64,000 nt of DNA from Mycolicibacterium porcinum (GTDB lineage Bacteria > Actinomycetota > Actinomycetes > Mycobacteriales > Mycobacteriaceae), in assembly GCA_001942045.1 (NCBI GenBank), contig MSTD01000029.1, forward strand, positions 11,389-75,388. The letters run 5' to 3'. The position numbers were made by a program, and so were the translations under genes. Positions 1-60,928 of this stretch are shown here, piece by piece. The notes below the pieces were generated by a model. The model made no database searches, was not told the DNA's origin, and saw nothing but the letters and a program-made list of their open reading frames with translations. The stretch's first letter is position 1, and each line of letters opens with the position of its first letter.

Positions 1-1268
1 GGAGCCGGTTGACCGACACTCATACCCGGTTGTGGGGTGCGGCGTTTCGCAGCCGACGCCCTACCGGCGGCCGGGAGCTGACCTGGTTTTCGACCGCCGA
101 GCTCCAGCGGATGCTGTGCTATCTCGACGTGCTGGCCGCCGACGCGGGTAAACCGGTAGTCATCACCCACCCCGATTCCACGATCTCGGTCGTGTCCGGT
201 CTCGGCGATCCGCAAGCGGCCCGGATCTGGCTGCTGCAAGCGTTGACCGGGCGTCGGGCCTCAGAGATTCTGATGCTCGATTACAGTCCACTGCAACCGA
301 TCCCGGGCCACGACCGCCCCGCCGGAGCCACCGACGATCCCGACGGATTCGTGGCCAAACTGCGCTACCAACAGACCAAAGTCGACGGGGTGGTGCCCAC
401 CATCCTCGTCGAGCAGGCCGTGGTCAACGTGATCAGCGAACAGCAAGACTGGATCCGGGCGCGCTACCCGTATTTCGAGCCGAAATACCTGTTCCTCGGG
501 GTGCGCTACCAGCACCAGGGCCAACGACCACGCAGCTATGACTCCTACAGCCGGATCCTCAATCGGCTCGACACCATCCACGGCCTCACCGACACCGCCG
601 GCCACCCGCTGCGGTTCTCCCAGACCCACCGGCTGCGCCACACCCGCGCCACCGAACTGCTCAACGACGGGGTGCCCATCCATGTGGTGCAGCGCTACCT
701 CGGGCACGCCTCGCCGGCGATGACCCTGCGTTACGCGGCGACCCTGCAAGCGACGGCCGAAGCGGAGTTCCTGCGACACAAAAAGATCGGCGCTCATGGC
801 ACCGACATCGCCATCAGCCCGTCTGACATCTACGACATGACCCAACTCTCGGCCCGTACCGACCGGGTGCTGCCCAACGGGGTATGTCTGCTGCCGCCGG
901 TGGCCACCTGCGACAAGGGCAACGCCTGCTTGTCATGCGGGCATTTCGCCACCGACGCCACCCACCTCGACGAACTGGTCGACCAACGCGCCAAGACCCT
1001 GAAGCTGATCGACATCCGCCGCGAGCAGTACCGTGCCCGCACCGGGCGCGAACTCACCGACGACAACGTGTGGATCCACGAACGTCGCCGCGAAATCGCC
1101 TCGCTGGATGCCATCCTCGACCGGCTCCGCCGCGACGACGTGACCGATGGCAGCGTGAGCAGTGTCGCGGGAGCCGGTACCGCCAACCGGGCACCCACCA
1201 TGCGCACCGCGACCCGGGGAAGCCACGAATCCGTGCTGCGCAAGGCCGACCCGGACCCGCCGCGATGA
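1..1268 (+). CDS. Tyrosine recombinase/integrase, N-terminus outside window
   Basis: Site-specific recombinase that would cut and rejoin DNA for the mobile element. The frame is open to the left edge and the visible protein starts in what looks like the middle of a longer integrase, so the TTG at 9 is probably internal. The catalytic pattern is visible: Arg in TGRRASEIL (about residue 82 counted from the TTG), the H-R-L-R box in THRLRHTRATELL, then LGHASPAM and a tyrosine in LRYA. A C-terminal cysteine cluster (ATCDKGNACLSCGHF) resembles the metal-binding tail of Tn554 TnpB-like enzymes. It overlaps the next gene by 4 bp (ATGA), so the two are translationally coupled. Confidence 0.85.
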   Translation, partial: SRLTDTHTRLWGAAFRSRRPTGGRELTWFSTAELQRMLCYLDVLAADAGKPVVITHPDSTISVVSGLGDPQAARIWLLQALTGRRASEILMLDYSPLQPIPGHDRPAGATDDPDGFVAKLRYQQTKVDGVVPTILVEQAVVNVISEQQDWIRARYPYFEPKYLFLGVRYQHQGQRPRSYDSYSRILNRLDTIHGLTDTAGHPLRFSQTHRLRHTRATELLNDGVPIHVVQRYLGHASPAMTLRYAATLQATAEAEFLRHKKIGAHGTDIAISPSDIYDMTQLSARTDRVLPNGVCLLPPVATCDKGNACLSCGHFATDATHLDELVDQRAKTLKLIDIRREQYRARTGRELTDDNVWIHERRREIASLDAILDRLRRDDVTDGSVSSVAGAGTANRAPTMRTATRGSHESVLRKADPDPPR

Positions 1269-1678
1269 GCCGCCCCAAGCCGCCACCGCCCACCCAGAAG
1301 GCACTCGATGCGCTGGCCGAATACCGCCGGGCCCGCAGCGATGAGAAGCGCCGCGACATCGAGAAGGCGATCGCCCACCTGCGCAAGACCAACGCCACCA
1401 TCAACTTCTCCACCGTGTCCCGCCGCGCCAAGGTGTCCCGCAAAACCATCTACAAACACGACGACCTGGTGACCGTCATCGAGCAATACCGCGGCCGGCA
1501 TACCGACCGACAACCGGCATCGACTGGCCGCGAAACCAGCATCCACGCCGCGCTGCGCCACAAACTCGCCGCCAAAGACAAAGAGATCGCCGCACTCAAA
1601 GCCACCGTCGCAGAACAACAATCAACCATCGAGCTGCTCTACGGCCAACTCGACACCCTGCACGAACAGACCCCCTGA
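1265..1678 (+). CDS. DUF6262/TnpC-like transposition partner protein
   Basis: A 137-residue, very basic protein encoded directly behind the recombinase with an ATGA overlap. Such small proteins (DUF6262, TnpC-like) accompany the large recombinases of Tn554-like elements and are thought to help set insertion efficiency or orientation. Visible parts: a Lys/Arg-rich N-terminal half, a helix-turn-helix-like stretch around VSRRAKVSRKTIYKHDDL (residues about 52-70), and a C-terminal helix with heptad-like spacing (KDKEIAALKATVAEQQS) likely to form a coiled coil. The family assignment is by resemblance and gene order; no enzymatic motif is seen. Confidence 0.75.
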   Translation: MSRPKPPPPTQKALDALAEYRRARSDEKRRDIEKAIAHLRKTNATINFSTVSRRAKVSRKTIYKHDDLVTVIEQYRGRHTDRQPASTGRETSIHAALRHKLAAKDKEIAALKATVAEQQSTIELLYGQLDTLHEQTP

Positions 1679-1708
1679 GCCCAGTACGCCCCCCGAGGTG
1701 TGCTGCGG

Positions 1709-1749
1709 TCACGGCCTGGCCCGCCGTGACGGAGGCCTTCCCGGCCTCC
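1709..1749. terminator. Two adjacent GC-rich hairpins after the recombinase operon
   Basis: TCACGGC-N7-GCCGTGA (1709-1729) and GGAGGCC-TTCCC-GGCCTCC (1731-1749) follow one another 31 bp after the DUF6262-like stop. There is no U-tract. Mycobacterial terminators often lack one, so a terminator is likely but unproven. The rest of the 1679-1899 gap shows nothing recognisable. Confidence 0.45.
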
Positions 1750-1899
1750 TGGCCAACTCGTGAGTGCCCGCCCGTGCCCGTCGGCCCGATTGCCAGGTCA
1801 TCGACAAGACCTGGCCCGGCGGGCTGTGGTGGGGAGATCTTTCCAGGGCGTGTCGGTGTCTGCCGATCGGTTGGTCGCTGAACCGGCGGCGGACCGGCG

Positions 1900-2592
1900 T
1901 TAGTCGGCGGTGACCGGCACACCGTTGTCGCCGGGCGGTGTGGGTGCGGTGGGGGTGGTTTTGCGTTGATGCGTGGTGAGGAAGTCGTCGACGATGCGGG
2001 TGGTGTCGTGGGGGGTCATGGTGTGCAGTCCGGTCATGCGGGCGAAGGCGAGCGGCCCGATGAGTTGGCACAACGCGAGGTTCACGTCGAAGTCGTCGAG
2101 TTCGGCGCGGGCTTCTGCGCTTTGCAGGATGGCGTCGAAGGGTTGTCGGTATTGGTCGACGACGCGTGCGCGCAGCGTGCCGGCCGCGTGTTCACCGCCG
2201 GCGTGGTCGGTGGTTGCGGTCGGCCCGAGGGACAGCCAGGCCAGCATGGTGACGTGTAGCGGGGCGTCGGCGAACAGCGCCGCCTGACGGGTGAGCAGTT
2301 CGATGAGGCGTTCGCGCACCGTCCCGCCGGCCGGTGCCGGCGGGGTGACTTGGGGTAGCAGCCGTTCGAAGGTGGCCGCCAACAAGTGCGATGAACTGCC
2401 GAAGTGGCGGTAGAGGGTGGTTCGGGCCACCTTGGAGGCTTTGGTGACCGCCTCGACGGTGACGGCCTCGACACCACCGGTGCTGAGCAGCGCGGCCGCC
2501 GCGTCCAGTAAGCGATTGCGGGACCGGGTGCGGCGGGGGTCGATTTCGTCGTCGTCTTCGTCGTGGACTCGATCCGGCTGGCTGCTGCTCAC
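1900..2592 (-). CDS. TetR family transcriptional regulator of the cargo genes
   Basis: A 230-residue one-domain TetR repressor. The N-terminal helix-turn-helix runs through about residues 20-65 (SRNRLLDAAAALL, then VARTTLYRHFGSSSHLL as recognition helix and following turn). The rest is a ligand-binding helical domain with a disordered Thr/Pro-rich tail. The GTG at 2592 is chosen because AAGGAGA (2599-2605) lies 6 nt upstream; an in-frame GTG at 2598 abuts the Shine-Dalgarno and is too close. It is divergent from the thioesterase gene, with a 35-bp double palindrome in the 108-bp gap. Its recognition helix resembles that of the TetR at 59042 (VTRTKLYRHF), whose promoter carries the same half-site, so I infer this is the protein that reads the cassette operators. 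Confidence 0.9.
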   Translation of the reverse strand: MSSSQPDRVHDEDDDEIDPRRTRSRNRLLDAAAALLSTGGVEAVTVEAVTKASKVARTTLYRHFGSSSHLLAATFERLLPQVTPPAPAGGTVRERLIELLTRQAALFADAPLHVTMLAWLSLGPTATTDHAGGEHAAGTLRARVVDQYRQPFDAILQSAEARAELDDFDVNLALCQLIGPLAFARMTGLHTMTPHDTTRIVDDFLTTHQRKTTPTAPTPPGDNGVPVTAD

Positions 2593-2653
2593 ACTCACTC
2601 TCCTTGCCGCTTCCCCCTTTATGGCCAACGGGTGCCGCCCGCCCGACACTTAT

Positions 2654-2688
2654 GGTACCAACAGTAGCGTTGCGAAACTGGTCGTACT
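2654..2688. promoter_or_regulatory. Cassette operator 1 (tandem GRTAC-N5-GTAYC)
   Basis: Two 15-bp palindrome-like sites, GGTACCAACAGTAGC (2654-2668) and GAAACTGGTCGTACT (2674-2688), are separated by GTTGC. Sites at 3936 and 4497 have the same geometry. This one lies between tetR and the thioesterase gene and ends next to the thioesterase Shine-Dalgarno GGAGG (2689-2693), where a bound repressor would block transcription. Confidence 0.7.
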
Positions 2689-2699
2689 GGAGGTATCGG

Positions 2700-3266
2700 G
2701 TGTCCGAGCATGTGCCGTGTCGGGATGAGGTACCCCACGGTGACCGTGGGGTTGGGTCACCCGCGGAACGGTTGCCCGCCCACACCCCGCACTGTATGGG
2801 CTGCGGCCCGGACAACCCCCACGGCCTGCAGCTGGTGGTGTATCGCTGCGGCGAGCAGGTGTATGCCGATGCGACCTTCGACGAACGCCACATCGGGGCG
2901 CCGGGATTGGCGCACGGCGGCGCGGTGGCGGCCGCCTGCGATGACGTGCTGGGCTTCACGTTGTGGATCGCCGGCACCCCGGCGGTGACACGCAGTCTGA
3001 CCGTCGAGTATCTGCTGCCGGTGCCACTGCACCAACCGCACCGGATCACCGCGCACATCACCGAGCGCAACGGCCGCGCCCTGCATGTCCGCGCGACAGG
3101 CACCGGCACCGACGGCGTCACCCGGTTCACCGCGAGCGCGGTGTTCGTCGTGGTGAGCACCGAGCACTTCGCCGCCCACGGTGATCTGGCGGCCTTCGAT
3201 GGCCTGCTGGAACGGTTCACCCGCAGCAGCCGGGCCCACGCCGATCCGCACGACCCGACATCGTGA
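2700..3266 (+). CDS. PaaI-type hotdog-fold thioesterase
   Basis: A 188-residue hotdog protein likely to hydrolyse an acyl-CoA or related thioester in the cytoplasm. It has the mycobacterial N-terminal signature HCMGCGPDNPHGL (about residues 31-43) and the catalytic-loop motif GLAHGGAVAAACDDVLG (about 66-82), in which the His-Gly-Gly and the acidic pair match the PaaI/YbgC-type active site. The rest gives the beta strands of a single hotdog domain. The GTG start at 2700 is supported by GGAGG 6 nt upstream. It overlaps the following tetR by 4 bp (GTGA), so both come from one mRNA under operator 1. Its substrate may be a lipid handled by the nearby MmpL; that link is inference. Confidence 0.85.
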   Translation: MSEHVPCRDEVPHGDRGVGSPAERLPAHTPHCMGCGPDNPHGLQLVVYRCGEQVYADATFDERHIGAPGLAHGGAVAAACDDVLGFTLWIAGTPAVTRSLTVEYLLPVPLHQPHRITAHITERNGRALHVRATGTGTDGVTRFTASAVFVVVSTEHFAAHGDLAAFDGLLERFTRSSRAHADPHDPTS

Positions 3267-3934
3267 CCGCGACCGACACCGGCGCCCAACCCAAAAGCCA
3301 ACAATCCCAGGCGGATCCGCGGCCGGTGGCACCACACCCGACCGCGCCGCCGCGTCCGCGGACGCCGACGCGTCACCGAGAGGCGATTCTGGATGCGGCG
3401 CTGGTGGTGGCCGCCGCGGGCGGGTATGAGGCGGTGCGGATGCGCACGGTAGCCGAGCGGGCCGGTATCGCGGTCGGCACGCTCTACCGCTACTTCCCGT
3501 CCAAGACCCACCTGCTGGTCTCGGCGCTGGCCCGAGAATTCGGGCGGCTGCAAGCCGCCCAGGACTGGGCCGCCACCGGCACGACACCTCAGCAGCGCCT
3601 GGATCGGCTGACCGGGTATCTGCACGACCGCTGGCAGCGCGACCTTCATCTCACCGAGGCCATGACACGGGCATTCGTCGCCGCCGACAGCACCGCGGCC
3701 GCCGCCCTCGACGAGGCCGCCGCGGTCATCGAGCGCCTGCTCGCCCACACCCTGGGCGGCGACACGCCCGGGCCGCTCGATCAGCCGGTCGCCGAGCTCC
3801 TCGCCGACATCTGGCTGGCGAACCTGACCGCGTTCATCGGCCGGCGGGCCTCGGCGGCCCAGACCCGTGACCGCATCGATCGGGCCAGCCGGCGCATCGT
3901 GGATCGCCTGGCCTCCCTCACCCCCAACAGTTAA
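3263..3934 (+). CDS. KstR-like TetR family regulator
   Basis: A 223-residue TetR protein with a Pro-rich, disordered first 35 residues. The helix-turn-helix (RHREAILDAALVVAAAGG, then AERAGIAVGTLYRYFPSK) and the C-terminal domain look like KstR, the cholesterol/lipid-degradation repressor. It is not expected to be KstR itself because it sits in a mobile cassette and no KstR-type box is seen next to it. It is co-transcribed with the thioesterase (GTGA overlap). Its recognition helix (IAVGTLYRYF) differs from that of the cassette's other TetR, so it may read a different signal or site. Operator 2 begins 2 bp after its stop codon. Confidence 0.85.
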   Translation: MTATDTGAQPKSQQSQADPRPVAPHPTAPPRPRTPTRHREAILDAALVVAAAGGYEAVRMRTVAERAGIAVGTLYRYFPSKTHLLVSALAREFGRLQAAQDWAATGTTPQQRLDRLTGYLHDRWQRDLHLTEAMTRAFVAADSTAAAALDEAAAVIERLLAHTLGGDTPGPLDQPVAELLADIWLANLTAFIGRRASAAQTRDRIDRASRRIVDRLASLTPNS

Positions 3935-3935
3935 C

Positions 3936-3970
3936 GATACTAATAGTATCGCAGCGATACTTACCGTACC
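3936..3970. promoter_or_regulatory. Cassette operator 2 (tandem GRTAC-N5-GTAYC)
   Basis: GATACTAATAGTATC, a perfect palindrome around its central base, and GATACTTACCGTACC are separated by GCAGC. The start-to-start distance is 20 bp, as in operators 1 and 3. The site ends 38 nt before the ATG of the DUF6188-like gene and contains a -10-like GATACT (3956-3961), which suggests direct overlap with the promoter. Confidence 0.7.
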
Positions 3971-4008
3971 CTTCAGATGCGACCCAAAGACGTGTCGAAG
4001 GAGGCGCC

Positions 4009-4443
4009 ATGTTCACCCAATGGATCGAAGACTGCGTCGTGCAACGCGTGTCGCTGCGCGACGGGTTGGTGTTGGACCTCGATGGCTACAGCGAGCTGGT
4101 GATTTCGCGTCCCCTGCGGCTGACGCTGCCGCCCGTCGGGGACTTTCCGGCCGAACAAGTGCTCATCGACCCCAACCGGGTCGCGGTGCACGAACGCCCG
4201 CTGCTCGACCTGGCCGGCGCGGTGTGTACGCACGCCCGGTACGGCGATGACGGCGCGTTGCACCTGGGTTTTTCCCGAGGGCACCGCATCGATGTGGAGG
4301 CCGACGCGCACGCCACGGCCTGGGAGCTCTACGGCAAACGCCACGGATACATGGCCTGCCTGCCGCGTGGCCGGGTCCGGGTGGTCCGCCACGACATCCC
4401 CGACGCCGACGACACCGACGCCGGCGTCGGCGCAGGTCACTAG
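4009..4443 (+). CDS. DUF6188-like protein of unknown function
   Basis: A 144-residue soluble protein beginning MFTQWIEDCVVQRVSLRDG, with an alternating strand-like pattern and a conserved-looking core (AWELYGKRHGYMACLPRGRVR, residues about 108-128). I recognise it as resembling the DUF6188 family common in mycobacteria; no catalytic residues are evident and there is no signal peptide or membrane segment. AAGGAGG lies just upstream of the ATG. It stands alone between operators 2 and 3, 108 bp before mmpL, and its regulation by the same operator type as mmpL is the only clue to its role. Confidence 0.7.
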   Translation: MFTQWIEDCVVQRVSLRDGLVLDLDGYSELVISRPLRLTLPPVGDFPAEQVLIDPNRVAVHERPLLDLAGAVCTHARYGDDGALHLGFSRGHRIDVEADAHATAWELYGKRHGYMACLPRGRVRVVRHDIPDADDTDAGVGAGH

Positions 4444-4496
4444 CGGCCCACAGGCGCGCCGCGCGGCCCCGGCGGACGCGCAGCGCGAACCACTGT

Positions 4497-4531
4497 GGTA
4501 CTGCTAGTAGCGTAGCGATACCGATAGTTCC
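4497..4531. promoter_or_regulatory. Cassette operator 3, in front of mmpL
   Basis: GGTACTGCTAGTAGC and GATACCGATAGTTCC are separated by GTAGC, the same 15+5+15 layout as operators 1 and 2. It ends 20 bp before the mmpL GTG start. Over the six half-sites the fixed bases are G1, A4, C5, G11 and T12, giving GRTAC-N5-GTAYC. Confidence 0.7.
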
Positions 4532-4551
4532 TTTTCTCGGGTGGAGGGGTA

Positions 4552-7500
4552 GTGACCGACAGCGATCCGGATGGTTCGGGCACCGCGATGAATGCTCGGC
4601 GGCGATACCGCCGTTCGGCCGAACCGGCGGATTCCAGCGAGTACAGCGCGCGGTTGGCGGCGCTGGCGAGGTTCACGGTGAGGCACAAGACGCTGGTGAT
4701 CGGCGCCTGGCTCGGCGTCGCGGTGGTGCTGGCACTGCTGTTTCCCCAATTGGAAACCGTGGTGCGCCAGCAATCGGCGGAGCTGCTCCCCCATGATGTG
4801 CCGTCGTTTCAGACAGTGGACCGGATGAGCGCGGCGTTCGGCGAACAAGGTTCCAAGACCATGGTGTTCGTCGCGATGGAAGACCCCGCCGGGCTGACCC
4901 CCGCGACGCGGGAGCGCTACGAGGACCTGGTGGCGCGGCTACGCGGCGACACCGCCCACGTCTTGCTGGTTCAGGACCTGCTGGCCGACCCGATCACCGC
5001 GACGCAGGCGGTCAGCGCCGACCGCAAGGCCTGGTTTCTGCCGGTCGGGGTGGCCGGCACCCTGGGCGATCCCGCCGCCGCCGAATCCGTGCAAGCGGTG
5101 CGCGACATCGCCGCCGACGTGTTCGCCGGCACGTCGACCACCGCGTACGTCACCGGCCCGCCCGCCACGTTCAGCGACCAGATCGCGGCCGCCGAACACG
5201 ACCTGGTGCTGATTTCGATCGCCACCGCCGGCCTGATCGCGGTGATCCTGCTCATCGTGTACCGCTCGGTGTTCACCGCGCTGCTGCCACTGCTGGTGAT
5301 CGCGGTGAGCCTGGTCGTCGGGCGCGGTGTGCTCTCGGCCCTGGGCCAGCTGGGAATGCCGGTCTCGCAATTCACCGTGGCGTTCATGACCGCGATCCTG
5401 CTGGGAGCCGGCACCGACTACACGGTGTTTCTGATCAGCCGCTACCACGAACAGCGCCGCGCACAGGTGCCGCCCGAACAGGCCATCGTGCACGCCACCG
5501 CCAGCATCGGCCGGGTCATCCTGGCCTCGGCGGCCACCGTCGCCTTCGCATTCCTGGCCATGGTGTTCGCTCAACTGAGCGTGTTCGCCGCCCTCGGCCC
5601 GGCCTGCGCGGTGGCCGTCATGTTCGGATTCCTGGCCACCGTGACGCTGCTGCCACCGGTGCTGGCGCTGGCCGCCCGACGCGGCATCGGCGACCCCAAA
5701 CCCGACCGCACCCGCCGCTACTGGAACCGCGTCGCGGTCGCGGTGGTCCGCCGACCCGTGCCCCTGCTGATCGCCAGCCTGGTCATCCTGCTGACCCTGG
5801 CCGCGGCCACAACAACGATGAAGATCAGCTACGACGACCGCAAAGGCCAGCCCGCCACCACCGCCAGCAACCAGGGCTACCAACTACTCGACCGCCACTT
5901 CCCCAAAGACATCGTCATCACCGAATTCCTCGTCGTGGAAAACCCCACCGACATGCGCACCGCAAAAGGGCTCGCCGACCTCGACGAAATGGCCTCCCGC
6001 GTCTCCCAGATCCCCGGCGTCACCACAGTGTCCGGCGTCACCCGCCCCACCGGAGCCCGCCTCGAACAAGCCCAACTCTCCTGGCAGAACGGCCAGATCG
6101 GCGACAAGATGGCCGGCGCCGTCGCCGACGGCAACGCCAGAAAAGACGACCTCGCCAAGCTCACCGCTGGCGCCGACCAACTCGCCGGCGGCCTGGCCCA
6201 ACTCGACACCACCCTGCGCACCGCCCTGACCCCCCTCACCGCGACACTCACCCAAGCCCAGTCCGCCGGCACCCAGATTCAACAGTTCCGGCCCCTGCTG
6301 CAACAACTTTCGGCCACCGCCCCCGGCGTCGACCGCGCCATCCAATCCGGTCCCGGGCTGCGCCCCCTGGCCGAACAAGCCCAACACGCCATCGCCGTCC
6401 TCGACCCCCTCACCGGCGCCCTCAACACCTCCCCGTGGTGTGCCACCACACCCCAATGCGCCCAGATCCGCGACCAAGTCCAGACACTGGTGAGCTTGCG
6501 CGACAGCGGATTGTTCACCCAGATCGCCGAACTCGGCGATCGCTACAACCCCGACACCAACGCCACCGTCGCCGGCACCCTGGCCACCGTCCACACCGCG
6601 GTCACCTCCCTCAACAAAGCCTTCGCAACCCTCGGAGACCCCGCCGACCTGGCCGGCAACATCCGACGCCTCCAAGACGGCATCAGCCAACTCGCCTCAG
6701 GCGCCCAAGCACTGGCCACCGGCGTCCACGCACTGGCCGACAGCAACATCGAAATGCTGTCCGGGATGAGCCAGATCGCCACCCAACTCCAAAACGCCGC
6801 CCGCGCCACCGCCAACTCGGACTCCTCCAGCGGCTTCTACCTGCCCGCCAACACCTTCCAAAACCGCCAATTCACCGATATGGCAAAACAATTCCTCTCC
6901 CCAGACGGAAAAACCGCACGCTTTGCCATCGAAACCAGCCACGACCCCTACAGCGCCGAAGCAACCCGCCTCGCACACGAAATCACCGACGTCGCCAACG
7001 CCGCACGCCCCAACACCTCACTGCACCAAGCCACCGTCTCCGTTGCCGGGTTCCCCGCCGTCAACTCCGACATCCAACGACTGCTGCGAGCCGACTTCAC
7101 CCAACTCGCCCTCGCCACACTGCTCATCGTCGGACTCATCCTCGTCCTACTACTGCGCGCCCTGCTCGCCCCGCTCTACCTGCTCGGCACCGTCGTGCTC
7201 AACTACCTGGCCTCACTGGGCATCGGCGTCCTCATCTTCCAATGGGGACTCGGACACGAAATCGCCTGGCCAGTACCACTACTCGCGTTCATCATCCTGG
7301 TCGCAGTCGGCGCCGACTACAACATGCTGCTCGTCTCACGACTACGCGAAGAATCAGGACACAACATCCGCGTCGGCGTACTGCGCACCGTCGCCAACAC
7401 CGGCTCCGTCATCACCTCAGCCGGCCTCATCTTCGCCGCCAGCATGTTCGGCCTCATGGTCGGCTCAGTGGCCATCATGATCCAAGCCGGCCTCATCATC

Positions 7501-7659
7501 GGCTGCGGACTCCTACTCGACACCTTCCTCGTGCGCACCCTCACTGTCCCCGCCATCGCCACACTCCTACGCGAAGCCAGCTGGTGGCCCCAACGAGCCA
7601 CCCACCGCCCAACAACCACCAGCCACTCCACACCACCACAACTAGCCACCCGCCATTAA
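4552..7659 (+). CDS. MmpL family RND transporter (mobile-element cargo)
   Basis: A 1035-residue membrane transporter of the MmpL group, expected to move a lipid or hydrophobic compound out of the cytoplasmic membrane using the proton gradient. Layout: one N-terminal helix (TLVIGAWLGVAVVLALLF, from about residue 45), a periplasmic domain, a block of five helices with GAGTDYTVFLISRYHE (the proton-relay Asp-Tyr), a long second periplasmic domain rich in helical repeats (about 420-840), and a last helix block with VGADYNMLLVSRLREES (the second Asp-Tyr pair). The GTG start follows GGAGGGG. No mmpS accompanies it. From about 5.7 kb to its end the coding strand becomes strongly C-rich and G-poor, unlike its first third. 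Operator 3 lies just upstream. Confidence 0.93.
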   Translation: MTDSDPDGSGTAMNARRRYRRSAEPADSSEYSARLAALARFTVRHKTLVIGAWLGVAVVLALLFPQLETVVRQQSAELLPHDVPSFQTVDRMSAAFGEQGSKTMVFVAMEDPAGLTPATRERYEDLVARLRGDTAHVLLVQDLLADPITATQAVSADRKAWFLPVGVAGTLGDPAAAESVQAVRDIAADVFAGTSTTAYVTGPPATFSDQIAAAEHDLVLISIATAGLIAVILLIVYRSVFTALLPLLVIAVSLVVGRGVLSALGQLGMPVSQFTVAFMTAILLGAGTDYTVFLISRYHEQRRAQVPPEQAIVHATASIGRVILASAATVAFAFLAMVFAQLSVFAALGPACAVAVMFGFLATVTLLPPVLALAARRGIGDPKPDRTRRYWNRVAVAVVRRPVPLLIASLVILLTLAAATTTMKISYDDRKGQPATTASNQGYQLLDRHFPKDIVITEFLVVENPTDMRTAKGLADLDEMASRVSQIPGVTTVSGVTRPTGARLEQAQLSWQNGQIGDKMAGAVADGNARKDDLAKLTAGADQLAGGLAQLDTTLRTALTPLTATLTQAQSAGTQIQQFRPLLQQLSATAPGVDRAIQSGPGLRPLAEQAQHAIAVLDPLTGALNTSPWCATTPQCAQIRDQVQTLVSLRDSGLFTQIAELGDRYNPDTNATVAGTLATVHTAVTSLNKAFATLGDPADLAGNIRRLQDGISQLASGAQALATGVHALADSNIEMLSGMSQIATQLQNAARATANSDSSSGFYLPANTFQNRQFTDMAKQFLSPDGKTARFAIETSHDPYSAEATRLAHEITDVANAARPNTSLHQATVSVAGFPAVNSDIQRLLRADFTQLALATLLIVGLILVLLLRALLAPLYLLGTVVLNYLASLGIGVLIFQWGLGHEIAWPVPLLAFIILVAVGADYNMLLVSRLREESGHNIRVGVLRTVANTGSVITSAGLIFAASMFGLMVGSVAIMIQAGLIIGCGLLLDTFLVRTLTVPAIATLLREASWWPQRATHRPTTTSHSTPPQLATRH

Positions 7660-7715
7660 GAACCAACACCCGCACCCACCCCCAACAAGTCACCGCACCC
7701 GTCACCGACGGCAGC

Positions 7716-7730
7716 CCGCCATGATGGCGG
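7716..7730. terminator. Small perfect hairpin after mmpL
   Basis: CCGCCAT-G-ATGGCGG is a perfect palindrome 57 bp after the mmpL stop, without a U-tract. It could end the mmpL transcript. The remaining 7660-7890 DNA is C/A-rich and holds no credible gene; it leads to the element boundary. Confidence 0.3.
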
Positions 7731-7869
7731 CGACGAAGCGACGGGCTCCCGAACCATCGCGCCAGCCAGACCGCACCAACCAACCCCTAACCGGAAACAC
7801 CGGCAGCCCAGCCTGTTACCCATCACGCCAAGCCAGGCCAACTCGCCTCAGCGGGAACAACAGTGAACA

Positions 7870-8595
7870 TCAGAATCTGACCCCAGATAACTGCTCGAAT
7901 CCGGCACCCATCTTGTGCACGCTGACCACGCACACATCCGCGCCGGCGTTCATCGCCCACGTCGGCAGGTCTTCGTGGAAGGGCAGATGCGCGCCCCACG
8001 CCTCGTCGACGATCAGCGGCTTGCCCCGGCTGTGGCAGATCTCGGCGATGCCCTCGATGTCGGCGCAGGTGCCGTACGGGCTGGGGCTGACGATCAGCGC
8101 CGCGGCGGCGTCCGGGTGCCGCTGCCAGGCCTGCTCCACCTGCTGCGGCGACGGCGGGTGCGACAGGTGGCGCTCGGCGTCCCATTGCGGGGTGATCCAG
8201 CGCGGCGTCAAGCCCGAGAAGATCAACCCTGCCACCACCGACTTGTGACTGTCGCGGCTGAGCAGCAGGCTGCCGTCACATCCGGCGACGGCCATCATCG
8301 CGGCCTTGACCGAGAGCGAACTTCCGCACGTGGAGAACCACGCCACTCGCGCCCCCACCGCCTCGGCCATCCAGTCCTCGGCCCGCTTGAGATAGCCGTT
8401 GCTCATCCGCCGGTCATCGAGACCGCCGCTGGCCAGAACATCGCTGAAGAACGGCTCACGCCCCAGGACCTGCAGCACCCGCCGGTCGACACCGCGCCCC
8501 TGTCGATGCCCCGGCGGCGAGAACCCGTACCGATTGGAATTGTGGTAGTCGTTTAGCGCGTCAAGCAGCGGTGCCGCGCCCTGGTCGCCGGTCAT
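7870..8595 (-). pseudogene. Orn/Lys/Arg decarboxylase-type PLP enzyme, C-terminal part lost
   Basis: The first 235 residues match the aminotransferase-fold decarboxylase family: NRYGFSPPGHRQGRG near the N-terminus, WFSTCGSSLSVKAAMMA, the substrate/cofactor His in LLLSRDSHKSV, LIVDEAWGAHLPF with the PLP-pyridine Asp, and VVSVHKMGAGFEQ with the Schiff-base lysine (K228). Directly after GFEQ the reading continues with LSGVRF and a stop, where the family would go on for a whole C-terminal domain. The break coincides with the end of the mobile element at about 7890/7891, so the gene was very likely split and is inactive. It overlaps the MFS gene by 35 bp as last gene of the leftward operon. Confidence 0.8.
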
Positions 8596-59041: not shown

Positions 59042-59752
59042 TCAGGGGCCGACGCGGTCCGGGTCGCGGTAAGTCTCGGCCTGCGCGGCGATCACCTCGG
59101 GTGTCGGTAGCGGCTCGGCACGATCCACGTACACACCGCCGGCCCGCAGGGTGTCGTCGACCAGTAGCCAGATCCACCGCACCAAGTCGGCCACCAGCCG
59201 GTCCTGCTCGGTGGAGCCGGGTTGGTCGAGCCACCGGCCGGTCGTCGATTCGACCAGCCCGACGATGGCGAAGGCCAACGGCTCTGGATCCGTGGAGACA
59301 CCAAAAGCGTTGAGGTACACCGTGAACAGCACGCCGAGCTGGGTCCCGATGGTCTGCCGGATGTCGGCGATGGCGTCAGGCGTCGCGGCGTCCTCGCCGA
59401 GTGAGCACCGCGCCAGGTAGCGGTACAGGTTGCGGTGCTCGACGAGGAATCGCACGTGGGCGCCGACGCTGGCCTCGATGATCTGGGCCATCGAACCGTG
59501 CGGGGTCCACAGCGGCGCGAGCTCGGCCTGGAGCATCTCGGCGGCGCGCTGCGCGATCGCGCGCTGCAGGTCGCCGGCACCGGCGAAGTGCCGGTAGAGC
59601 TTGGTGCGGGTGACGCCGACGTGGGCGGCGATCTGTTCGGTCGAGGTCTGCGGACCGTGTTCGGCGATCGCGGCCAGCGCGGCATCGACGAACTCGGCCC
59701 GTCGGCGTTCCCGCTGGCCTGCCCATCGGCCGCGCCTCACGGCTGGTTCCAC
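59042..59752 (-). CDS. TetR family regulator divergent from DUF2236 gene
   Basis: A 236-residue TetR repressor with helix-turn-helix around EFVDAALAAIAEHG, EQIAAHVGVTRTKLYRHFAG (residues about 20-56) and a C-terminal ligand domain. The GTG at 59752 is the likely start. Two GGTAC-N5-GTACC palindromes lie between it and the divergent DUF2236/aldehyde dehydrogenase operon, which it presumably represses together with itself. The half-site and recognition helix resemble those of the mobile cassette TetR at 1900, so the two may cross-bind. Confidence 0.9.
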   Translation of the reverse strand: MEPAVRRGRWAGQRERRRAEFVDAALAAIAEHGPQTSTEQIAAHVGVTRTKLYRHFAGAGDLQRAIAQRAAEMLQAELAPLWTPHGSMAQIIEASVGAHVRFLVEHRNLYRYLARCSLGEDAATPDAIADIRQTIGTQLGVLFTVYLNAFGVSTDPEPLAFAIVGLVESTTGRWLDQPGSTEQDRLVADLVRWIWLLVDDTLRAGGVYVDRAEPLPTPEVIAAQAETYRDPDRVGP

Positions 59753-59774: not shown

Positions 59775-59818
59775 TGGTACATGTCGTACCATTCACCTAA
59801 CTGGTACGTCCTGTACCA
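59775..59818. promoter_or_regulatory. Two TetR operators, TGGTAC-N5-GTACCA
   Basis: TGGTACATGTCGTACCA (59775-59791) and TGGTACGTCCTGTACCA (59802-59818) start 27 bp apart. CAAG before the first and CTTG after the second extend the overall symmetry. They sit between the divergent tetR (59752) and DUF2236 (59843) starts. Confidence 0.8.
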
Positions 59819-59842: not shown

Positions 59843-60928
59843 ATGGACGCGTTGATCGCAGTTCGCAAAGCGGCAGGCCTGCCGGCAGTCGCCGACCCCT
59901 TGGCACCCGCCGAGGACTACGGCTTCTTCGGCCCGGATTCGATCACCTGGAAGGTGTGGAGCTACCCCACCTCACTGCTGATCGGCTTCTCCCGGGCGGT
60001 GACCATCGAACACCTCGACCCGTTCCTGGCCGCCGCGGTCGACGCCACCGGACAGGTCTACGCCCGCACCCGCCTGCGCTACGACCGGACCATGCAGTAC
60101 TTCGCCCTGGTCGCCTTCGGCGACGCCAAGTCCGTCCTCGACGCGTCCGAGATCCTGGTCAAGATCCACTCGAAGGCCATCGGCACCGAACCGATCACCA
60201 AGCGCCCGTTCGACGCCAACGACCCGCACTCGCAGCTGTGGATCCACCTCACCGCGTGGCACTCGATCCTCTACAGCTACGAGATGTTCGGCCCCGGCAA
60301 GCTGACAGCGGCCGAGGAGAGCCAGTACTGGGAGGAATGCGCGCGGGCGGCGGAGTTTCAGACCATCAACCCCGACGATGTGCCACGCACCCGCGAGGGC
60401 ATCCGGGAGTACTTCGAGAGCTTCCGACCCGATCTCGTCGGCTCCGAGGTGGCCCAGCGGATGATGGACTACCTGGTCGACCTGGGCTACCACATCCTGC
60501 CCGAGCGGATGCCGCGCTGGATGCGTAAGGCGTTCAACATTCCGATGCGCGCCGCCATCATCGCCACCATGCCGCAGTGGATGCGCCTGCTGGGCGGCAT
60601 CCCCCAGCGCCGGTTCGCCGACGTCGCGGCGCGGGCCGTGGTGCGCCCGTTCCTCAGGGTCGTCGCCGCGAATCCGCGCCTCGAGCTGGCCGTCCTGGAC
60701 CTCACCACGCCGCACACCACGCCGATCGTCGGCCCGACCCTGATGGGTATCCCGGCCAAGAACACCGTGACGTACACCCCGGCCGAGGCCAGGGCCAAAT
60801 GGGACCGGACCACTCCGTTCGAGCAGTACGCTGCGATCGTGGCCAAGCGGGAGGCGGGCCAAGGCCCCACCCCGTACGTCCATAACCATCACGACGCACT
60901 GATGCAATTCGACAAGAGCGTGAGCTGA
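59843..60928 (+). CDS. DUF2236/MpaB-type oxygenase-like protein
   Basis: A 361-residue, mainly helical cytoplasmic protein of the oxygenase MpaB family (DUF2236), members of which include latex-clearing-like and mycophenolic-acid pathway haem oxygenases. It has FFGPDSITWKVWSYPTSLLI (about residues 28-47), the conserved ARTRLRYDRTMQYFALVAFG (about 74-93) and LWIHLTAWHSILYSYEMFG (about 132-150), whose histidines are potential haem or metal ligands. GAAGGGA precedes the ATG. It is in an operon with an aldehyde dehydrogenase (1-bp gap), so it may create an aldehyde by oxidative cleavage; that is inference. Confidence 0.85.
   Translation: MDALIAVRKAAGLPAVADPLAPAEDYGFFGPDSITWKVWSYPTSLLIGFSRAVTIEHLDPFLAAAVDATGQVYARTRLRYDRTMQYFALVAFGDAKSVLDASEILVKIHSKAIGTEPITKRPFDANDPHSQLWIHLTAWHSILYSYEMFGPGKLTAAEESQYWEECARAAEFQTINPDDVPRTREGIREYFESFRPDLVGSEVAQRMMDYLVDLGYHILPERMPRWMRKAFNIPMRAAIIATMPQWMRLLGGIPQRRFADVAARAVVRPFLRVVAANPRLELAVLDLTTPHTTPIVGPTLMGIPAKNTVTYTPAEARAKWDRTTPFEQYAAIVAKREAGQGPTPYVHNHHDALMQFDKSVS

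Follow-up and report, generated by a model that had tools for sequence, protein, structure and literature searches.

Which regulator controls the gene cassette in the first part of a 64,000-nucleotide stretch of Mycolicibacterium porcinum DNA (contig MSTD01000029.1; the whole stretch is called the window below), and how would it recognise the three long, repetitive palindromic sites that lie between the cassette genes? The cassette comprises a TetR regulator gene (tetR1), a thioesterase gene followed by a second, KstR-like TetR gene (tetR2), a gene encoding a DUF6188 protein and an mmpL transporter gene. We propose, with a probability of roughly 0.8 and on the basis of sequence comparison, that the three sites are operators of TetR1 and that, as long as no lipophilic ligand is present, two TetR1 dimers per operator repress tetR1 itself, thioesterase-tetR2, DUF6188 and mmpL. 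In the proposed mechanism: i) every operator would present two 21-bp palindromes in tandem, repeating every 20 bp; ii) two TetR1 dimers would, to judge from this fixed repeat, bind next to each other on the same face of ~41 bp of DNA; iii) the bound protein would block transcription of the four genes/operons; and iv) the lipophilic ligand would release the dimers.

The window was scanned with the pattern GRTAC-N5-GTAYC-N5-GRTAC-N5-GTAYC at up to three mismatches, with 100 shuffled windows as the control. Three matches were found (starting at 2654, 3936 and 4497, with 3, 0 and 2 mismatches, respectively) and none in the 100 shuffles, so that the three sites of the original prediction were recovered at the same positions (Table 1). 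The strict 20-bp period it had claimed was recovered as well: among pair spacings of 12 to 40, only 20 joined three high-scoring pairs in the window (29 and 38 joined two each, the others at most one). Its statement that each 15-mer fits GRTAC-N5-GTAYC was too strict, as an exact fit was found for two of the six 15-mers, both in site 2. The start codons lie 11-61 bp from the sites. The three units that had been named as facing the sites do so, but the sites are faced by four genes/operons in all, because site 1 also adjoins tetR1 on the opposite strand. The distance between site and ATG at DUF6188 was 31-43 bp (median 39) over 35 distinct sites, that of the window included.

The anatomy of the operator was derived from two collections. 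The first consisted of 107 distinct 35-mers, of which 94 were left after reverse-complement duplicates had been dropped; the sites of L109 (Microbacterium) and L113 (Rhodococcus), both chance-like, and those less than 20 bp from the end of a stretch had been left out. In the 94 sequences positions -3 to 0 and 37-38 were conserved although they lie outside the search pattern, and the profile was flat further out. The second collection, chosen by protein and not by pattern, contained the upstream regions of 38 TetR1 and 17 paralog genes, hand-picked across the identity range and not at random. A pair of 15-mers at spacing 20 (p ≤ 0.01) was present in 34 of the 38 TetR1 regions, among them L212 with one degraded unit, and 20 was the best spacing in 32.8 of the 38 (ties shared). 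The best 15-mer spacing upstream of one TetR1 homolog, L210 in genome G223, was 14. In 36 of these 38 regions the letter frequencies of the half-sites gave W R C G V T A C T, where the core letters 1-5 had steered the choice and positions -3 to 0 and 6 to 9 had not. Because flanking positions outside the search pattern are thus conserved in the half-sites, the predicted operator unit is a 21-bp palindrome, W-R-C-G-V-T-A-C-N5-G-T-A-B-C-G-Y-W, and the two units overlap by a single base pair, the W in the middle of GYWGC, which gives a putative operator of ~41 bp with a 20-bp repeat. The GYWGC-like element, described before as a 5-bp spacer, is better taken as abutting half-site ends with a common central A/T. 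As 20 bp correspond to about two helical turns, the two dimers would lie on the same DNA face. The operators also differ by promoter: at the thioesterase the third half-site is consistently GAAAC, many mmpL sites have GCTACAT..TGTAGC as the first unit, and the DUF6188 sites have the most regular form.

Within the same 35 bp a different arrangement can be drawn, in which one dimer binds the centre GTAKC-GYWGC-GMTAC with the outer pentamers as accessory, or in which overlapping dimers occupy opposite sides, as for CprB and QacR. The centre is indeed palindromic and highly conserved in the 94 35-mers, although in part by selection because it belonged to the search pattern, and two dimers on opposite operator sides are known in the TetR family (PMC4150764). 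Single 15-mers with a degraded neighbour, however, stand beside a few relatives (L209 and L212 in the TetR1 set; L221, L231 and L232 in the paralog set); they favour the 15-mer as the binding unit and make the central arrangement unlikely.

The assignment of the putative two-dimer operators to TetR1 comes from co-occurrence. We took 248 genomes of one genus and scored the site at up to one mismatch, a TetR1 ortholog at a best E < 1e-60 and TetR2 at E ≤ 1e-53, a threshold set to exclude KstR that may also drop diverged TetR2 proteins. The TetR1 orthologs were set apart among the matches listed (E of at most 2.7e-73, against 6.4e-54 or higher for all others, some of which are TetR1 fragments). 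The site occurred in 113 genomes, with five matches for the reversed control pattern; site and TetR1 were found together in 110 genomes, the site alone in 3, TetR1 alone in 3 and neither in 132. In two of the genomes with TetR1 alone (G085 and G211) a 2-mismatch site lies upstream of tetR1. Beyond the genus, the exact degenerate pattern was scanned over 84,980 species genomes, which yielded at least 119 stretches (cut at 8-kb borders) from Mycobacteriaceae, Nocardia, Gordonia, Williamsia, a metagenome-assembled genome (MAG) labelled Nocardiaceae, one Rhodococcus and one Microbacterium. Among the 171 sites listed, a tetR1 match was present within 300 bp in 82 and within 3 kb in 134; tetR1 was present in 98 of the 119 stretches listed, and in 21 of the at least 119, Nocardia among them, it was accompanied by none of the other four cassette proteins. 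The stretches from Nocardia and Gordonia carry site and tetR1, with no tetR2 match. Ten genomes with a stretch that lacks tetR1 or matches it weakly were checked genome-wide: in seven a full-length ortholog was located elsewhere in the genome, G010 contains a tetR1 fragment and a paralog, and the genomes of L109 and L113 have no tetR1.

The pattern also occurs on plasmids. All three places are occupied on M. chubuense pMYCCH.01, on pMu0050 and, in two copies, on the second plasmid of M. dioxanotrophicus; M. abscessus pGD69B-1 has two of the three. In M. aubagnense the pattern stands 5' of DUF6188, and on pMyong1 and pP2-4a 5' of mmpL. In the six further plasmid records that were searched whole, a tetR1 homolog was found in all six, with 2, 2, 5, 2, 3 and 4 distinct places at up to three mismatches and none for the reversed control pattern. 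On pMyong1 and pP2-4a mmpL and tetR1 lie ~18 kb apart, each with its own site, and these are the sole two sites of either plasmid (up to three mismatches). On pMYCCH.01 (NC_018022.1, 433748-436158) there is also a second, broken tetR1 with operator copies of its own. The pattern does not occur widely away from the cassette: in M. dioxanotrophicus G100 (8.1 Mb) it has 12 places at up to two mismatches, three in each of four cassette copies, with no control matches. G100 was recognised as this species because the site positions on its contigs 2 and 3 are those of the two plasmids. Stray single places occur in other genomes, for example on G103 contig 3 (one mismatch) and, with two mismatches each, on contig 82 of G010 and contig 1 of G085.

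It is improbable that the KstR-like TetR2 regulates the three sites. Its gene lies inside the cassette, 72 of the 73 TetR2-positive genomes have the site and a tetR2 match lies within 3 kb of 112 of the 171 listed sites (within 300 bp of 52), but 41 of the 113 site-positive genomes have no TetR2 match at E ≤ 1e-53, 39 of which have TetR1 (neither site nor TetR2 was found in 134 genomes), and the Nocardia and Gordonia stretches speak against it too. Moreover, TetR2 shares the recognition-helix stretch AVGTLYRYFPSK with KstR, whose motif TnnAACnnGTTnnA is bound by one dimer (PMC1995591) and is unlike the sites. At one mismatch this motif has 6 matches in the window against a chance mean of 4.99, and TNNAACNNGTTNNA, again the KstR motif, is absent from window positions 1-7890 at up to one mismatch. 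A division of labour, in which both TetR proteins act on the sites, for instance on one 15-mer each or in competition, would suit the two TetR genes, the two 15-mers per site and the consistent GAAAC at the thioesterase operator; we think it equally improbable, as both 15-mers are retained at spacing 20 in Nocardia loci that have tetR1 but no other gene of the cassette. That the repeats are parts of a mobile element (ends, attachment sites or replication repeats) is hardly credible, for although a Tn554-like element appears to carry the window cassette, tetR1 has the sites with it in Nocardia and at other loci beside a transporter gene of the major facilitator superfamily (MFS), and the sites are located near start codons and away from position 7890, where the element ends. 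Since the site tracks TetR1, TetR2 fits worse and Nocardia and Gordonia have no tetR2 match, TetR1 most likely regulates its own gene along with thioesterase-tetR2, DUF6188 and mmpL; a single regulator for the whole cassette, DUF6188 included, had been predicted from the window and is very probably right in the light of the genome comparison. The choice between the two TetR proteins had been left open in that prediction.

Several observations weigh against control by TetR1. The Fisher value for the association of site and TetR1 (1e-62) overstates independence because the genomes share ancestry. The three genomes with the site alone are G206 and G096, in which a 1-mismatch site but no TetR1 ortholog was found, and G010, which has a TetR1 fragment only. 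In G223, the third genome with TetR1 alone, the best TetR1 copy (L210) has no 20-bp pair; a different tetR1 copy there contains a stop, and a site with two mismatches follows its 3' end. Four of the 38 TetR1 upstream regions (L197, L207, L209 and L210) have no significant pair at spacing 20, 21 of the 119 listed stretches have no tetR1 match (many being cut by the 8-kb borders), and pGD69B-1 has no third site 5' of mmpL. In addition, a simple scan gave no sigma-70-like promoter, so the overlap of site and promoter is a candidate only.

Table 1. Predicted operators, cassette genes and element end in the window (strand and coordinates as in the window).
Feature	Position	Strand	Remarks
Operator 1	2654-2688 (core, 35 bp); 2651-2691 (extended, 41 bp)	+	Predicted; between tetR1 and thioesterase, 61 bp from the tetR1 start and 11 bp from the likely thioesterase start; kept in relatives
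Operator 2	3936-3970; extended 3933-3973	+	Predicted; 38 bp 5' of DUF6188; begins directly after the tetR2 stop codon
Operator 3	4497-4531; extended 4494-4534	+	Predicted; 20 bp 5' of mmpL; kept in relatives
Tyrosine recombinase, C-terminal part, Tn554-like element	1..1268, begins before the window	+	PF00589; counterpart on the near-identical plasmid has 746 aa
DUF6262 protein, putatively TnpC-like from position and order	1265..1678	+	PF19776
tetR1, TetR/AcrR regulator, likely cognate regulator	1900..2592	-	TetR_N + TetR_C_11; GTG start 2592 as in the plasmid annotation
PaaI-like hotdog thioesterase	2700..3266	+	4HBT; GTG 2700 behind GGAGG 2689-2693
tetR2, KstR-like TetR	3263..3934	+	TetR_N + TetR_C_20
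DUF6188 protein	4009..4443	+	PF19686
mmpL, MMPL-family RND (resistance-nodulation-division) transporter	4552..7659	+	PF03176, TIGR00833; NCBI start corresponds to 4588
Right end of mobile element	7890	 	Inside Orn/Lys/Arg decarboxylase-like gene 7870-8595 (-), OKR_DC_1

The annotation of the cassette rests on domain models. The two domains of TetR1 were recognised with an E of 6e-12 (PF00440) and with 32.4 bits against a cut-off of 32 (PF16859). TetR2 scored 195 bits with the KstR equivalog model (cut-off 280) and E 1e-48 with KstR in the PDB set, and is named KstR-like, not KstR. The thioesterase start in Table 1 is our choice (the NCBI start in the plasmid copy is 2796); the G-rich stretch 3' of operator 1 is retained in relatives. 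The structure model of the DUF6188 protein is mostly beta and confident (mean predicted local distance difference test score, pLDDT, 87), and its fold comparison gave no confident or telling match. To judge from their families, a thioesterase and an MMPL transporter under a TetR protein suggest an exporter for a lipid-like or a toxic, hydrophobic compound.

The cassette is found in several copies. Window positions 1-7890 are 99.98% identical over 7,890 bp to the M. dioxanotrophicus plasmid NZ_CP020810.1, with a sharp stop and different genes beyond 7.7 kb, and the M. peregrinum copy (L082; 95.8% identity) ends at 7892; the right end of the element agrees in three copies and the left end lies outside the window. 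With identity ending at 7890, the reading of the window as a piece of the M. dioxanotrophicus plasmid was rejected. The host is Mycolicibacterium-like, and its CoA-transferase is 84-88% identical to those of the five nearest relatives listed, the named ones being M. porcinum and M. vulneris. The near-identical plasmid copy contains two tyrosine-type recombinase genes, the second encoding 746 aa, and then DUF6262, of which just DUF6262 and the last part of the long recombinase gene lie in the window. Tn554-related elements have been described in actinobacteria (PMC3414803), and the recombinase set fits these, which makes the cassette putative cargo of a Tn554-like element. In M. dioxanotrophicus the chromosomal tetR1 is split by an insertion of ~2.7 kb; on plasmid 1 tetR1 is intact; on plasmid 2 one tetR1 lies in two reading frames and the other is open and ~2.7 kb away from its operator. 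Beside the broken tetR1 genes the cassettes keep all three operators (L178, L179), and the mmpL copies there are broken too. Because two of the four tetR1 copies are broken and the operators are kept, such cassettes are likely to be controlled in trans. Elsewhere in the window, at 59776-59817, two GGTAC-N5-GTACC palindromes stand 27 bp apart between a TetR gene (59042-59752, minus strand; TetR_N and TetR_C_46, distinct from the cassette TetR proteins) and a gene at 59843-60928 (plus strand); the pair probably represents a separate operator.

The spacing is shared by a paralog clade with other letters. In the upstream regions of the 17 paralogs (43-51% identical to TetR1; L218-L234), pairs of RAGAC-N5-GTCTY at spacing 20 were found in 12 (p ≤ 0.01), a single 15-mer in three and none in two. 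GAGAC takes the place of the G(A/C/G)TAC of TetR1. When the two forms were exchanged, the GMTAC form reached p ≤ 0.01 in 3 of the 17 paralog regions and the GAGAC form in 3 of the 38 TetR1 regions, although 20 was still the best spacing of the GAGAC form in 8.4 of the 38. We compared 68 TetR1-clade with 10 paralog sequences (split at 52% identity; matches with stops or not spanning residues 25-190 were left out) and found in the recognition helix the near group-invariant changes S53A, K54N (K in 64 of 68) and T58A from TetR1 to paralog (230-aa numbering), with differences at other, less conserved positions as well. The five paralog loci inspected (L235-L239) all have the mycofactocin genes MftF and/or MftG nearby and four of them (L235, L237, L238 and L239) an MFS gene or part of one; no MFS gene was called in L236 in the family scan. 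The nearest NCBIfam models of the L235 protein are SmvA and EmrB/DHA2 efflux, below their cut-offs, and a ribosomal protein L3 gene is also near this locus.

MFS transporters are typical targets of TetR proteins, and an MFS gene divergent from tetR1 was seen in Nocardia (L012, L013, L065 and L116), a Mycolicibacterium MAG (L115), L241 and Williamsia (L010 and L068). The L012 protein, the sole one of these scanned with NCBIfam, is SmvA/LfrA/DHA2-like, below cut-off. In Williamsia L068 a thioesterase gene follows the MFS gene, and mmpL, which has a separate site, lies on the opposite flank. The likely history, to judge from these loci, is that the operator of an efflux-pump regulator was copied to further genes. 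A wider scenario, which we put forward tentatively and at slightly less than even odds, is that of a Mycobacteriales TetR clade with a rigid 20-bp ruler in which the letters switch (G(A/C/G)TAC with S53-K54-T58, GAGAC with A53-N54-A58), of which a mobile element would have spread the first version, with three promoter-specific operator variants, onto new transporter genes, the regulators acting across replicons on cassettes with a broken tetR1.

Through the analysis, a TetR clade that occurs in 113 of the 248 genus genomes gains a concrete predicted operator and a small, defined regulon, and the DUF6188 family is placed in a putative transporter circuit. TetR1 and its paralog form a matched pair that shares the spacing and differs in the letters, which may be useful for understanding how TetR proteins choose their DNA, and as the cassette occurs on chromosomes and plasmids, the link between regulator and operator could explain how arriving copies are silenced from the start.

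No description of the TetR1 clade, its operator or the cassette was recognised in the literature searched. EthR, a mycobacterial TetR protein, reportedly octamerizes cooperatively on its operator; operator sequence, spacing and target genes all differ from those of the cassette. Its motif has been described as larger, more complex and present in multiple copies (PMC4482099). TetR proteins at MmpL genes (PMC5895659) and operators that bind two dimers (PMC4150764) are already known; what is new is a regulon of a known kind, which is well supported, with the 20-bp ruler and its switch of letters as the newest side. KstR, which TetR2 resembles, has as its reported motif TnnAACnnGTTnnA, for one dimer (PMC1995591), unlike the cassette sites. 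QacR, CgmR, Ms6564 and CprB place two dimers on one operator of 22-32 bp, the CprB dimers on opposite sides and QacR at an efflux gene (PMC4150764). The cassette operators would resemble this class in taking two dimers on one long operator, as suggested by the 20-bp repeat, and differ from it in being ~41 bp long with two complete palindromes abutted. Another close parallel is MAB_4384 with MmpS5-MmpL5 of M. abscessus, whose operator spans 27 bp, consists of two degenerate inverted sequences of 13 nt separated by 1 nt, and is occupied by two dimers in the authors' model (PMC5895659). Here as there, the TetR gene is divergent from the MmpL locus with a palindromic operator in the intergenic region; unlike that system, which as reported has one operator and an mmpS gene (PMC5895659), the cassette has three tandem palindromes of 41 bp, another TetR and no mmpS.

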